Shown here piece by piece: positions 37,240 to 43,233 of a stretch of 43,711 nt of DNA; position 1 is the first letter of the stretch; every line of letters begins with the position of its first letter. Below the pieces are notes generated by a model, which saw nothing but the letters and a program-made list of their open reading frames with translations, made no database searches and had not been told where the DNA came from. Made by a program: the position numbers and the translations under genes. Source of the stretch: a bacterium BMS3Abin01 (lineage in GTDB: Bacteria > Actinomycetota > Thermoleophilia > BMS3ABIN01); assembly GCA_002897715.1 (NCBI GenBank), contig BDUA01000051.1, positions 1 to 43,711 on the forward strand, in the 5' to 3' direction.

Positions 37240-38304
37240 ATGAAAACTCTTAAACGCGGAGACAGGGGCAAGGAAGTGCTGGATGTACAGGCTCGGCTGA
37301 AATCGCTGGCCTATGATGTCGGCACCGACGGTGTGGACGGCCTTTTCGGCAGCGACACTGAAGCTGCGGTAATGCTTTTTCAGCAGAACAGTGGACTGAT
37401 CGTCGACGGGGTCATCGGAGAGAATACCTGGTGTGAACTGGTGGAATCGCGTTACGAACCGGGGGAGCGCCTGCTCTACCTGCGCATCCCGCCGTTCCGC
37501 GGCGCTGATGTTCTGGCGCTTCAGCGTTCCCTCAACTGTCTGGGTTTCAATGCCGGTCCGGAGGACGGCATCTTCGGGGCCAAGACGGAGGGGGCGGTCC
37601 TGGATTTCCAGAAGAACGCCGGGTTGGTTATGGACGGCATGGTGGATGAATCGGTTATAAAGGTGATGGCCAAAGTAACCAAGGACGGGGAGCCGCATAA
37701 CTCGGAGGCCAAGATACCGGATCGAAACGGCGGCTACGCCAGCGGCCGCGAGCTGGCGGAACTGACCATCGCCATCGATCCGGGACATGGCGGTGAAGAT
37801 GAAGGAGCGTGCACGGCTGATGGCCTGCGGGAGAAGGACATAAACCTTAAGCTGGGGAAGAAACTGGCGAGGATACTGATCTCCGCCGGAGCCACCGTGA
37901 TGATGACACGTGATGCGGATCAGCGGGTGTCGTTGTATGAACGTCCGGCGGCGGCCAATCATGCCGGGGCCGATATCTTCCTGAGCATCCATCATAACAG
38001 TCACCATCATCCCGGGGCCCAGGCGGTGGCGGCCTATTACTTCTGTCGCCAGGGTTACTATTCCGAGGCCGGCCGCGTACTGGCCGAACACATCGTCGAC
38101 CGTATCTCCGAGCGTCTGGGGCTGGAGCTGATACCGGCGATGGGGCGGAACTATGCCGTTCTCAGGGAGACGGAGATGACCGCGGTCATGGTGGAGCCGC
38201 TGTTCATCACCGCCGGCGGCATGGGCGAAAAGATGGCGGATGGGGAGCTGATCGGGCTTGAAGCGGAGGCCATTTTTCAAGGTTTGAAGGATTACTTTGC
38301 TTGA
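37240..38304 (+). CDS. N-acetylmuramoyl-L-alanine amidase with two peptidoglycan-binding repeats
   Basis: 354 aa; LKRGDRGKEVLDVQARLKSLAYDVGTDGVDGLFGSDTEAAVMLFQQNSGLIVDGVIGENTW; IAIDPGHGGEDEGACTADGLREKDINLKLGKKLARIL; FLSIHHNSHHHPGAQAVAAYYF. Confidence 0.95.
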   Translation: MKTLKRGDRGKEVLDVQARLKSLAYDVGTDGVDGLFGSDTEAAVMLFQQNSGLIVDGVIGENTWCELVESRYEPGERLLYLRIPPFRGADVLALQRSLNCLGFNAGPEDGIFGAKTEGAVLDFQKNAGLVMDGMVDESVIKVMAKVTKDGEPHNSEAKIPDRNGGYASGRELAELTIAIDPGHGGEDEGACTADGLREKDINLKLGKKLARILISAGATVMMTRDADQRVSLYERPAAANHAGADIFLSIHHNSHHHPGAQAVAAYYFCRQGYYSEAGRVLAEHIVDRISERLGLELIPAMGRNYAVLRETEMTAVMVEPLFITAGGMGEKMADGELIGLEAEAIFQGLKDYFA

Positions 38305-38320
38305 AAAAAGGATTATTTAG

Positions 38321-38345
38321 CCCGGAAATTAACGCAATTTGCGGG
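38321..38345 (+). other. Hairpin downstream of the amidase gene
   Basis: CCCGgAAATTaacgcAATTTgCGGG: 4+5 bp stem with one G-G mismatch; no strong T tract. Confidence 0.4.
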
Positions 38346-38388
38346 ATTTCAATGTTAAGAAGATGCTTTTGTCTCACATGGAGTTGAA

Positions 38389-38409
38389 TTAGCAAAAACC
38401 CTTTGCTAA
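38389..38409 (+). other. Perfect 8-bp hairpin in the NlpC leader
   Basis: TTAGCAAA-AACCC-TTTGCTAA. Confidence 0.6.
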
Positions 38410-38481
38410 GCTCCTGAAAGTTTGCAATGAAAGCGATAGCCAACTGGCGACGCAGACGCGTTCAAAAGGAGGCGAAGATCA

Positions 38482-39645
38482 ATCAGGTTTAAGTTAAAGT
38501 TTTTATCAGGATCAAGCGGAACCCACTCTCGCTCCGATTCCTCAATAACAGTCAACTCCAGAAGACACCTTGCGGTTGTCTTCTTTCTGTGTATCCCACT
38601 TATCAGTCTCATCGCCCTAACCATCTCCGTATCCTATGCCGGGGCTGAGCCTGGGGGGGATATAGATGCCAAACAGTCTCAGGCTGATTCTGTGCGCAGC
38701 GAGATAGCAGGGATGAACAGCGAGCTGGAAGCCAAGGTAGAAAGTTACAATTACGCCAACTACCAGCTCAGCCAGATAGAGGCGAATATCGCCGATAACG
38801 AGGCCAGGCTGCAGGAGGCGATAGTGACTCTGGACGAGACGCAGTCGCGTCTGAATGATCGTGTGGAGAAGATCTACAAGAACGGTTCAGTCGAGATGCT
38901 GGATGTACTGATGGACACCAGCGACCTCTCGGAGTTTCTTACGACCTATGACATGCTTACCAAGGTGAGCGAGCAGGATAGCAACGATGTCGAGCAGGTC
39001 AAGATGCTCAAGTCCCAGGTCGAGGATGCCAGGGCGCAACTGGCGGAAGACAAGGACTCACAAGAAGGACTGGTGGCGCAGCTGTCTGCGGAACAGGCGG
39101 CTATCGAGTCAGGCATTGCCGAGAGGAACACGGCTCTTGCCGGCATCGAGGCGGATATCTCACAGCTGGAGGCCGAGCAGGCCGCGGCCAACGAAGTTTC
39201 TTTCCAGGCACAGGTTGCTGCCAGTAACACCGATAGCAGTGGCGGCGGCGGCGGATACAATGATAGCGGCGGCAACTATGGGCCCGCACCGGCGCCCAGC
39301 GCCGGCGGCGCAGTCGGCATCGCCCAGCAGTACCTGGGAGTGCCTTACGTCTGGGGTGGAGCATCGCCTTCAGGGTTCGACTGCTCCGGACTGACAATGT
39401 ACGTCTACGCTCAGATGGGGATATCACTACCTCACTCGGCGGCGGCGCAGTTGTCCTCGGGTACACCCATAAGCTACTCGCAACTGGCGCCGGGCGATCT
39501 GGTTTTCTTCGGCAGCGGCGGCATCAGCCACGTCGGCATCTATGTCGGTGGTGGCAGTATGATCCATGCTCCCTATCCGGGCGCATCGGTAATGATCTCG
39601 CCCCTGGCGTACGGCGGCTCCTATCGCGGCGCCTGCCGGCTCTGA
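38482..39645 (+). CDS. Secreted NlpC/P60 peptidoglycan hydrolase with coiled-coil N-terminal domain; start codon uncertain
   Basis: Track ORF starts at GTG 38692, but the same frame is open to about 38440 and encodes a signal peptide ([33 protein letters not shown]). NlpC/P60: [59 protein letters not shown]...[20 protein letters not shown] 38482 lies 9 nt after AGGAGG. Confidence 0.75.
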
Positions 39646-39697: not shown

Positions 39698-39742
39698 CAT
39701 GCCTGTCTCCGAGCTTCTTGTATATAATCCCGGGCTACACCA

Positions 39743-39822
39743 TTGTCATCCCGGAGTGCACTCTGTCATCTCGGAGTGCACCATTGTCATCCCGAGCCGC
39801 AGGCGAGGCTCTGCTTTTCCGG
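39743..39822 (+). repeat. Second locus of the dispersed TGTCATCCCGAGCCG repeat with degenerate tandem units
   Basis: TTGTCATCCCGGAGTGCA CTCTGTCATCTCGGAGTGCA CCATTGTCATCCCGAGCCGCAGGCGAGGCTCTGCTTTTCCGG; last unit nearly matches 13039-13077. Confidence 0.85.
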
Positions 39823-39891: not shown

Positions 39892-41373
39892 ATGGAAAGA
39901 ACAGACAAAGCAGGTGTACGCGTGAGATTTGCGCCCAGCCCCACCGGGCATCTTCATGTGGGCGGCGCGCGGACAGCCTTGTACAATTGGCTGTTGGCCC
40001 GTTCACAGGGTGGAACCTTCGTCCTCAGGATAGAAGATACGGACCTGGAACGCTCCACGGAGCAGGCGATCGACCAGATAGTCGACGGTTTGCAGTGGCT
40101 GGGCCTGGATTGGGATGAAGGTCCGCGAATCGGCGGACCCCATGGCCCATACCGGCAGATGGAGAGGGCCGGACTTTATGCGGAAAAAGCCGACGGCCTG
40201 CTGGCGGACAGGAAAGCATACCGGTGTTACTGCTCTGCCGAGGACCTGGATGCGGCCCGCAGCCAGGCCAGGGAGAAGGGAGAGCCGTACATTTATGACG
40301 GGCGCTGCCAGCGGCTCGACGGCGACACGGAAGCTGTCTTCCGGGAGGAGGGGCGCCAGTCGGTGATACGTCTCCGGACGCCCACGACCGGGAACACCGT
40401 GGTCAAGGACCTGGTTCACGGAGAAGTGAGTTTTGAGAACGTTCTATGCGGTGATTTCATCCTGGTCAGGTCCAGCGGCGTGCCTACCTATAACTTCGCT
40501 GTGGCGGTAGACGACATCGCCATGGGAATAACCCATGTCATCCGTGGTGACGACCATCTGCCCAACACGCCCAAGCAGCTTATGGTGATGGCGGCTATGG
40601 GTGAGGAGCCGCCGCAGTACGCGCATCTGCCGCTCATCCTGGGAACGGATCGGGCCCCTCTGTCCAAACGTCACGGGGACGTGTCCGTGGAGGAGTTCCG
40701 CGAACATGGCTATGTCAGGGAGGCTTTGTGCAACTACCTGGCCTTGCTGGGCTGGAGCTTCGATGGCGAGACCACGCTTTTCTCCATGGAGGAACTGGTG
40801 GAAAAGTTCTCGCTGGAGCGGGTGGGCAGCACCGCCGCCGTCTTCGACCGCGTGAAGCTTCTATGGATGAACGGGAGCTATATCCGTGACATGGAACCCA
40901 TCGAACTGGCGGAACGTCTGGAGGAGTTTCTGCCGTCCACCCGTCTTGCCGGGTTGCCCGGCGGCGAAGGCAGGCCGGAGATCGCCGATCTGGTCCCGCT
41001 GGTGCAGGAGAAGCTCAAGACGCTGGCAGACTTCGTCGAACTGACGGACTTCTTCTTCCTGCCGGTGGAATTCGAGGAGAAGGCGCTGGACAAGTTGCTG
41101 AGCAATGGCGAGGCGCCGGCGCTTCTGCGGGTAGCGGCGGGCATAATCGCTGAAGTCGAACCTTACAGCTCCGAAGCCATCGAAGCCGCCATGAGGAAGG
41201 CCGCGGAGGATATGCAAGTGAAGCTGGGCAAGTTCCTGCAGCCGGTGCGCATCGCCGTGAGCGGCAAGATGGTGACGCCGGGGATGTTCGAGACGCTGAG
41301 CGTTCTGGGACGCGAGGAGAGTCTCCGCCGGATCGAACACGTCCTCAGCAAGCAGTTCAAGGGGCATTCCTGA
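39892..41373 (+). CDS. gltX: Glutamate--tRNA ligase
   Basis: 493 aa; VRFAPSPTGHLHVGGARTALYNWLLARSQGGTFVLRIEDTDLERSTEQAIDQIVDGLQWLGLDWDEGP; APLSKRHGDVSVEEFREHGY. Confidence 0.97.
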   Translation: MERTDKAGVRVRFAPSPTGHLHVGGARTALYNWLLARSQGGTFVLRIEDTDLERSTEQAIDQIVDGLQWLGLDWDEGPRIGGPHGPYRQMERAGLYAEKADGLLADRKAYRCYCSAEDLDAARSQAREKGEPYIYDGRCQRLDGDTEAVFREEGRQSVIRLRTPTTGNTVVKDLVHGEVSFENVLCGDFILVRSSGVPTYNFAVAVDDIAMGITHVIRGDDHLPNTPKQLMVMAAMGEEPPQYAHLPLILGTDRAPLSKRHGDVSVEEFREHGYVREALCNYLALLGWSFDGETTLFSMEELVEKFSLERVGSTAAVFDRVKLLWMNGSYIRDMEPIELAERLEEFLPSTRLAGLPGGEGRPEIADLVPLVQEKLKTLADFVELTDFFFLPVEFEEKALDKLLSNGEAPALLRVAAGIIAEVEPYSSEAIEAAMRKAAEDMQVKLGKFLQPVRIAVSGKMVTPGMFETLSVLGREESLRRIEHVLSKQFKGHS

Positions 41374-41395: not shown

Positions 41396-41848
41396 TTATT
41401 CAGCCGTAACTCTGACACGATATTCCTGATCTCGAAGATCAGGATGACCAGCACCGGCAGCAGCTACCTCCCAGTTATCGACTGTGTCGTTGGCGTCGCC
41501 TTTGGTTATAAACCTGAGACCCCCGCTGTCAGCGATGACCCTGGTGACCCGGTGCGTGGTATTGGCTGGCTCCTGATTATCAGGTTTCCGGGGTAGCGGG
41601 AAGGTAATGATGTCGTCAACCTTGATATCGTCAGGGTTAACGGCGGCGACCAGGACCACGCTGCCCACCTTGATGCCGGGCTCCATGCTGCCGCTGAGAA
41701 CAACCATCGGCTTATATCTGCCCACAACGGGCAGGTTCTGGAAAGCTCTCACCGTTGTCAGCATGAACATGATCAAAACCATTACCATGAGTGCGATCAT
41801 GATAGAGAGCGTCCATTTGGCTGTTTTCCATATGGTCTTATTGATCAT
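41396..41848 (-). CDS. SipW-like (ER-type) signal peptidase I, apparently C-terminally truncated/frameshifted
   Basis: MINKTIWKTAKWTLSIMIALMVMVLIMFMLTTVRAFQNLPVVGRYKPMVVLSGSMEPGIKVGSVVLV...ANTTHRVTRVIADSGGLRFITKGDANDTVDNWEV; catalytic Ser, His, Asp motifs present, usual C-terminal TM missing in frame. Confidence 0.8.
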   Translation of the reverse strand: MINKTIWKTAKWTLSIMIALMVMVLIMFMLTTVRAFQNLPVVGRYKPMVVLSGSMEPGIKVGSVVLVAAVNPDDIKVDDIITFPLPRKPDNQEPANTTHRVTRVIADSGGLRFITKGDANDTVDNWEVAAAGAGHPDLRDQEYRVRVTAE

Positions 41849-41863
41849 ATCTGATAATGGATG

Positions 41864-41898
41864 GCGCTCCCGGGCGGCTGGCAGCCGCCCGGGAGCGC
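41864..41898. other. Perfect 16-bp inverted repeat, 3-nt loop, between the tasA-like and sipW-like genes
   Basis: GCGCTCCCGGGCGGCT-GGC-AGCCGCCCGGGAGCGC; no adjacent T tract. Confidence 0.9.
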
Positions 41899-41927
41899 TG
41901 TGATATCTTGTCCCTTTGGAGTACCAC

Positions 41928-42572
41928 CTACTGGCTGGCATCCTGGTTGAGGGTCGAGGTGACGCTCATGGTCAGTATGTCACCCTGGATGTCGTTGCCG
42001 GCTTCCGGCCGGAAAAACAGAGACATGTTGAGACTCTGCGAACCGACCTGGACGGGCAGCGGCGCCAGCAGGTTGTCCAGGTATCCGCCGCTACTGGAAT
42101 AAGGCGGCAGGGACAGGTCCTCCAGGTCGAACCAGCCGTTGCCGTTGGCATCGACAAAGGATGTGGCGAAGTTCACGCCGTCGTAGGTCATGGCGGTGAT
42201 CTCGATCATCCTCGCCATATCCCCCGGCGCCGATGCCGGGTTGGTGTCCGACTCCACCGGGTTTGATGTCTCATCGATGCTGTAGCTGAAACCAAGCTCG
42301 ATATGGTCCGCATTCACGCTTCCAGCGTTCTGAAGCGACATGCTGTTGGTGACACTGGATACCCCGGGGACCATATTGCCTATTACCCAGGTCTGGGATA
42401 CCCCGTCACCATAGCCCTCATCGTTATCAGCCACCTTCAGGTCAAGAGTTCCGGCGGCAAAGCTGTTGCCGCTGGAGGTCTCGCTGTCGCTGAAGTATGC
42501 GTATGTGCCGGCGCCTGCCAGCATGGCCAGCAGAGAGACGGCCAGGACAGATATCAGTATGCGTTTATTCAT
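41928..42572 (-). CDS. TasA/CalY (camelysin)-like secreted protein, SipW-dependent-type signal
   Basis: MNKRILISVLAVSLLAMLAGAGTYAYFSDSETSSGNSFAAGTLDLKVADN...; YFSDSETS motif. Confidence 0.85.
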   Translation of the reverse strand: MNKRILISVLAVSLLAMLAGAGTYAYFSDSETSSGNSFAAGTLDLKVADNDEGYGDGVSQTWVIGNMVPGVSSVTNSMSLQNAGSVNADHIELGFSYSIDETSNPVESDTNPASAPGDMARMIEITAMTYDGVNFATSFVDANGNGWFDLEDLSLPPYSSSGGYLDNLLAPLPVQVGSQSLNMSLFFRPEAGNDIQGDILTMSVTSTLNQDASQ

Positions 42573-42639
42573 TCATAACACCCCATCTCGATACGGATGA
42601 GGATTCATGTGATCACTCCTGATCGACGCGTAATCCGTC

Positions 42640-43233
42640 CTAGTTCTGTGTAAGGTCGACGACGATGTCGAAGGTGACCGCGTCGCTCTGGATGATGTTG
42701 CCGACGCTCGTACCTATCGAGCCCTGCAGTTCGAAGTTGCGGGTCTGTGAGGCGTTAAGCGAGCCCAGAGATACAGAGCCTGCACCTGCCAGCTGATTCA
42801 GCGTGCCTGACCAGATAGGAGCAGCAGCATCCACATCGTAGATTACGATATCCATTTTGGCGCCCAGATCGCCGTCCGGGTCAACGCCACAGGTAGTGTC
42901 GACAAGGGCCTCCGGCTCATTACAGCCGTTGTCATCGTTTGCCAGGTTCTGGACCGACACAGTCAGCGTGTTGCCGTCTATGGTGCCGCCATTGGTCACT
43001 GTGATCGGTTCTGTGCTACTCCAGCCCGGGTACAGATTGCTTTCGGCGAACGCGGAAGACAGCGGATTTTCACCGTTTACTATTAGATCGAGGGTACCGG
43101 CGCCGAAGGTGTTGCCCGTACTGGTTTCAGAGTCACTGAAGTAGGCGAACGTGCCCAGGGTCACCATGGCGGTGGCCACGGCGATAACCAGGACGCTCAT
43201 GGCTATTTTTCTTGTCAATATCCTGCCAAGCAT
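42640..43233 (-). CDS. TasA/CalY (camelysin)-like secreted protein, second paralogue
   Basis: MLGRILTRKIAMSVLVIAVATAMVTLGTFAYFSDSETSTGNTFGAGTLDLIVNGENPLSSAFAESNLYPGWSSTEPITVTNGG... Confidence 0.85.
   Translation of the reverse strand: MLGRILTRKIAMSVLVIAVATAMVTLGTFAYFSDSETSTGNTFGAGTLDLIVNGENPLSSAFAESNLYPGWSSTEPITVTNGGTIDGNTLTVSVQNLANDDNGCNEPEALVDTTCGVDPDGDLGAKMDIVIYDVDAAAPIWSGTLNQLAGAGSVSLGSLNASQTRNFELQGSIGTSVGNIIQSDAVTFDIVVDLTQN

Follow-up and report, generated by a model that had tools for sequence, protein, structure and literature searches.

Conserved AUC at the predicted start of nlpC, behind a folded leader, in a family of uncultured Actinomycetota

Comparison of orthologous loci strongly supports AUC as the start codon of nlpC, a gene for a putative secreted cell-wall endopeptidase, in one family of uncultured Actinomycetota, and we infer that this codon is used in vivo. 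With a probability of roughly 0.8, the AUC start, its rejection by IF3 and a brake formed by the leader RNA together limit NlpC synthesis. The gene was studied in a window of 43,711 nt, the whole stretch of DNA that was analysed, which comes from contig 51 (BDUA01000051.1) of the draft assembly GCA_002897715.1 (57 contigs, 1.50-Mb, 86% complete). Orthologues were collected from 17 of the 19 genomes of the family, representing six genera, and were drawn from several independent assemblies, including the JAJYIM, JAJYXB, JACWAD, JACUUL and CAJVWY records. The order amidase-nlpC-gltX is common to all 17 orthologous loci, with gltX present wherever the contig extends that far. The three genes lie in the window as follows:

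37240 to 38304, forward strand: upstream gene, N-acetylmuramoyl-L-alanine amidase (Amidase_3) with two peptidoglycan-binding domains, assigned from Pfam and synteny
38482 to 39645, forward strand: nlpC coding sequence, 387 aa, with a predicted signal peptide, PcsB-type coiled coil, Gly/Pro linker and NlpC/P60 endopeptidase domain; RipC-like, assigned from Pfam and a PDB sequence search
39892 to 41373, forward strand: downstream gene gltX (glutamyl-tRNA synthetase), assigned from Pfam and, where the contig reaches, synteny

The product appears to be a secreted NlpC/P60 endopeptidase of the RipC-like type. The NLPC_P60 domain scored 104.8 bits against a Pfam curated cut-off of 23 and the CC_PcsB coiled coil 30.2 bits against a cut-off of 27. 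In a phmmer search of PDB sequences, residues 99–381 matched 8idc_E, the mycobacterial NlpC/P60 endopeptidase MT2245, which is the closest solved relative matching most of the length of NlpC and which we take to be RipC, the FtsEX partner. The features that define RipC/PcsB-type enzymes, namely a PcsB coiled coil, an NlpC/P60 domain and a secretion signal, are all present, and NlpC thus has the signal peptide, coiled coil and NlpC/P60 domain in common with the FtsEX-activated endopeptidases of the RipC/PcsB/CwlO type. To our knowledge, neither start-codon nor leader control has been described for the genes of such endopeptidases, and a literature search combining NlpC with ‘noncanonical start codon’ found no paper.

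Four features mark the start region:

38427 to 38492, forward strand: 21-codon ORF from ATG 38427, ending with TAA at 38490–38492, present only in genus g1 and lacking a Shine-Dalgarno; judged non-functional
38437 to 38439, forward strand: in-frame TAG, the upstream limit of the open NlpC frame, read from the sequence
38467 to 38472, forward strand: Shine-Dalgarno AGGAGG, with AAGGAGGCG invariant in 17/17 orthologues
38482 to 38484, forward strand: predicted ATC start codon, 8–9 nt from AGGAGG; ATC in 16/17 orthologues and TTG in 1/17

The initial annotation had reported that no ATG, GTG or TTG occurs in the NlpC frame between this TAG and GTG 38692, that AGGAGG sits 9 nt ahead of ATC 38482 and that ATG 38427 opens a 21-residue ORF ending at TAA 38490–38492. 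The coordinates were re-checked and found to be correct in each case, and the arrangement of AGGAGG and ATC recurs in 16 of the 17 orthologues. A signal peptide encoded upstream of GTG 38692, also proposed at that stage, was borne out by a basic n-region (6 K/R, 1 D/E), a hydrophobic stretch (Kyte-Doolittle mean 2.97 over 15 residues) followed by ..SYAGA-EPGG, and a bias in codon position 3. Over codons 2–50, 81 of the 159 differences between close orthologues fall at codon position 3 (p = 3.5e-6), a value obtained from seven pairs that are partly dependent because L011/L014 and L014/L015 share a sequence. Judged by this pattern of substitution, the signal-peptide region shows coding constraint in the NlpC frame.

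Conservation of the ATC itself strongly supports its use. The codon stands behind AAGGAGGCG in 16 of the 17 syntenic orthologues, these 16 representing five genera; the spacing is 9 nt in both genomes of genus g1, to which the window belongs, and 8 nt elsewhere. In the orthologue alignment all three of its bases are invariant, and bases −1 to −5 are variable. The comparison with related genomes that had been proposed as a check revealed no conventional start in place of ATC in any genus except g2, where the single locus (L019) has TTG at that position, 9 nt after AGGAGG; a tree intended to polarise this change did not resolve the branching among genera. An identical ATC in 16 genomes, spread over several independent assemblies, excludes a sequencing or assembly error that conceals a canonical start, an explanation which the draft state of the source assembly might have encouraged and to which we give a negligible chance. 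The TAAG at 38490–38493 (+8 to +11 after the ATC) was also seen to be invariant, in 16 of 16 genomes, though codon 3 varies (always NNT).

Outside the family, canonical starts are available both in a paralogue encoded by the source genome and in relatives from other families of the class (for example ATG in L002, ATG after AAAGGAGGCGACGGC in L025 and GTG after AAAAGGAGGCGATGCA in L031), so that the ATC start is, among the genomes examined, a feature of one family. A search with the pattern AAGGAGGCGNANNNATCNG gave no match, and a spacing-corrected pattern gave eight matches outside the family, at single scattered places. In other families, L024, L026, L029, L030, L032 and L033 appear to have a GTG a few bases past a promoter-like TAG-containing element, and these may be leaderless mRNAs.

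The extent of the nlpC leader was estimated from a predicted promoter. The motif TTGA(C/A)T-N17-TAnnnT is found in all 17 orthologous leaders, with TTGACT as the general form, TTGAAT in genus g1 and, mostly, an extended TGn. The conserved promoter predicts a leader of about 60–68 nt (approx. 65 nt), within which a conserved RNA element was found:

38384 to 38412, forward strand: predicted promoter, with TTGAAT at 38384–38389, a 17-nt spacer ending in TGC (extended -10) and TAAGCT at 38407–38412; conserved in 17/17
38439 to 38473, forward strand: leader RNA element, with GCC 38439–38441 paired to GGC 38471–38473, CU 38444–38445 to AG 38467–38468 and, in the upper hairpin, 38449–38453 to 38458–38462; supported by RNAalifold, pair counts and a model search

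Initiation at some other codon, either upstream in frame or at a downstream canonical codon that would yield a shorter protein, appears very improbable. In-frame ATG, GTG or TTG codons do occur in the leaders of L007, L020, L010, L013, L016, L018 and L021, where a longer product would be possible, and ATG, TTG or GTG is found within the hydrophobic stretch of many orthologues, but none of these codons is at a conserved place. In nine of the 16 ATC genomes, an in-frame stop 11–14 codons upstream is followed by no canonical codon, leaving no upstream candidate, while L001, L012 and L021 have no in-frame canonical codon, and hence no downstream candidate, from the ATC to the mature domain. In L012 both the leader and the signal peptide are devoid of in-frame canonical codons, so this locus has no canonical option, given the predicted promoter. 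With a downstream start, moreover, a peptidoglycan enzyme would lose its signal peptide, and the spacing from Shine-Dalgarno to ATC is maintained.

The same leaders argue against a programmed +1 frameshift, in which ribosomes initiating at ATG 38427 would change to the NlpC frame at GTT TAA G. The invariant TAAG after the ATC means that the stop in that frame is kept, and the peptide of the short ORF is identical in G000 and G001, where the sole difference is synonymous. However, ATG 38427 lacks a Shine-Dalgarno and occurs in no orthologous leader outside the two g1 genomes, and in the L009 and L012 leaders all three frames are free of ATG, GTG and TTG. A leader ATG before CCAACTGACC in genera g3 and g7 falls in frame 0 (L010, L013), 1 (L011, L015) or 2 (L018) relative to nlpC, so no single frameshift could serve, and the difference between 8 and 9 nt spacing among genera likewise implies that the upstream frames are not conserved. 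The distance between AGGAGG and the GTT P-site codon is 14 nt, much greater than the 3-nt Shine-Dalgarno spacing of the prfB +1 site. Classification as a prfB-type frameshift gene was considered and rejected, as the combination of a conserved upstream start in another frame with a slippery stop is absent here. We consider a frameshift very improbable. Of the three explanations first offered for the missing start codon, initiation at ATC is the one upheld, by 16 of 17 orthologues; sequence error is contradicted by the independent assemblies and the frameshift by the L009 and L012 leaders.

The RNAalifold consensus of the leader, GCC..CU....(hairpin)....AG..GGC, has the Shine-Dalgarno as its 3′ strand. 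Across the alignment, 99.3% of cells are paired and nine cells are changed on both sides, a result that none of 500 shuffles equalled; in controls with the structure slid along the alignment, 33–53% of cells pair. Within the upper stem, nine genomes have GC and seven have AU at one pair, and a second pair is AU, GU or GC. The lower helix is invariant (GCCAACU in 16 leaders and GCCCACU in one), so covariation backs the upper stem only and the lower helix is supported by conservation alone. When the leaders are folded as single sequences, most show no gain in stability over shuffled ones (z between −2.3 and +0.1). A covariance model found one match per genome in the 17 family genomes, always at nlpC, and none elsewhere in 149 genomes of the class. 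An Rfam search of 38200–38800 gave no credible match to a riboswitch, RNA thermometer or other family, only chance microRNA matches, and the element is not described in Rfam. The modelled hairpin would sequester the Shine-Dalgarno, which points to a regulatory role.

Conserved non-canonical starts are known from other actinobacterial genes. Streptomyces sigR has a GTC start that is repressed by IF3, as proven experimentally (Feeney et al. 2017, PMC5472188); the codon is GTC in 32 of 34 species and GTT in two, behind the long Shine-Dalgarno AGGAGGTG (PMC5472188). It had been missed by annotation because pipelines permit only ATG, GTG and TTG (PMC5472188). By the same token, standard gene callers would lose the NlpC signal peptide, and a secreted enzyme would be annotated as cytoplasmic. 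Both sigR and nlpC are actinobacterial, with a non-canonical start, a long or strong Shine-Dalgarno and conservation across species. They differ in that sigR encodes a sigma factor and uses GTC, with proven IF3 repression, whereas nlpC would encode a secreted peptidoglycan hydrolase and use ATC, with a leader that would sequester the Shine-Dalgarno. The infC start is ATT in E. coli and ATC in Streptomyces (PMC5472188). The latter resembles nlpC in its conserved non-canonical ATC, but infC is under feedback control by the protein it encodes, a translation factor, which NlpC is not, and the infC of the family appears to use GTC. According to its abstract, Borrelia burgdorferi bbe22 (pncA) has an AUU start that was missed in databases (PMC13398362); like nlpC, it is a non-translation gene with a near-cognate AU(U)-type start. 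It differs in using AUU and in being a plasmid gene, and the abstract mentions neither leader structure nor cross-genus conservation (PMC13398362). In nlpC, the absence of a canonical codon at the start, a proper Shine-Dalgarno spacing and cross-species conservation are all found, and the gene appears on these grounds to join the small class with conserved non-canonical starts.

In infC of the family there is no well-placed ATG, GTG or TTG, and GTC stands 8–9 nt after a GGAGG-type Shine-Dalgarno in 15 of 15 genomes (L065–L079, with L068 at G000:C10). In L065 and L067 an in-frame TAG lies one codon ahead of CCA-GTC. The gene for IF3 thus probably starts at GTC, and the occurrence of its own conserved GTC start in the same family supports the IF3-linked reading of nlpC. 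In other families (L107, L109, L111 and L122), the infC frames open a few codons before the domain and the only candidates are of the ATA/ATC type, which suggests a putative ATA start for infC in family f5. A search for initiator-like tRNAs with anticodon GAU found none, only CAU; two GGGCTGATAACCC matches considered as GAU initiator tRNAs were ruled out, as they are not tRNAs. The 16S tail pattern, found in one draft genome (G006), is the standard CCTCC.

We propose that the nlpC mRNA would have its 5′ end about 65 nt before the gene, and that the ordinary initiator tRNA(CAU) would start with fMet at AUC 38482, placed there by the strong Shine-Dalgarno 8–9 nt upstream. A C:C mismatch at the third codon position would make initiation weak, and IF3, by its established role, would selectively reject this start. 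The leader hairpin, paired with the Shine-Dalgarno, would form a second brake, and together they would restrain the production of a wall-cutting enzyme that could be lethal and link that production to the IF3 level or to free initiation capacity. With one reporter, four alternative codons, AUC among them, reached 5–20% of the AUG level in clostridia and 0.1–0.3% in E. coli (PMC9680021). By analogy with the characterized genes, NlpC output is most likely low and IF3-sensitive via the AUC.

It is rather unlikely that the AUC, while being the start, is just a weak codon that is tolerated, with no regulation and an ordinary leader. The TTG of genus g2 indicates that ATC is not indispensable, and a weak codon may suffice behind a strong Shine-Dalgarno. 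Yet a single C-to-G change would give ATG, and ATC has been kept in 16 genomes from five genera, with the leader fold and promoter also conserved. Retention of ATC behind a folded leader suggests a deliberate restraint on output at the step of translation initiation, and a conserved AUC on a cell-wall hydrolase raises the prospect that IF3 start-codon discrimination may serve to limit dangerous enzymes. More tentatively, infC (GTC) and nlpC (ATC) could possibly belong to a group of IF3-discriminated genes in which the AUC and the Shine-Dalgarno-sequestering leader tie a division or growth endopeptidase to initiation capacity; if so, wall cutting would be adjusted to the state of protein synthesis.

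Two further observations concern the surroundings of the gene. Between nlpC and gltX, the intergenic motif CATTGTCATCCCGGAGTGCAC and its variants are repeated at 39738–39800. On the reverse strand at 41396–43233, a weak match to signal peptidase S26 is clustered with two camelysin/TasA-like proteins (Peptidase_M73).
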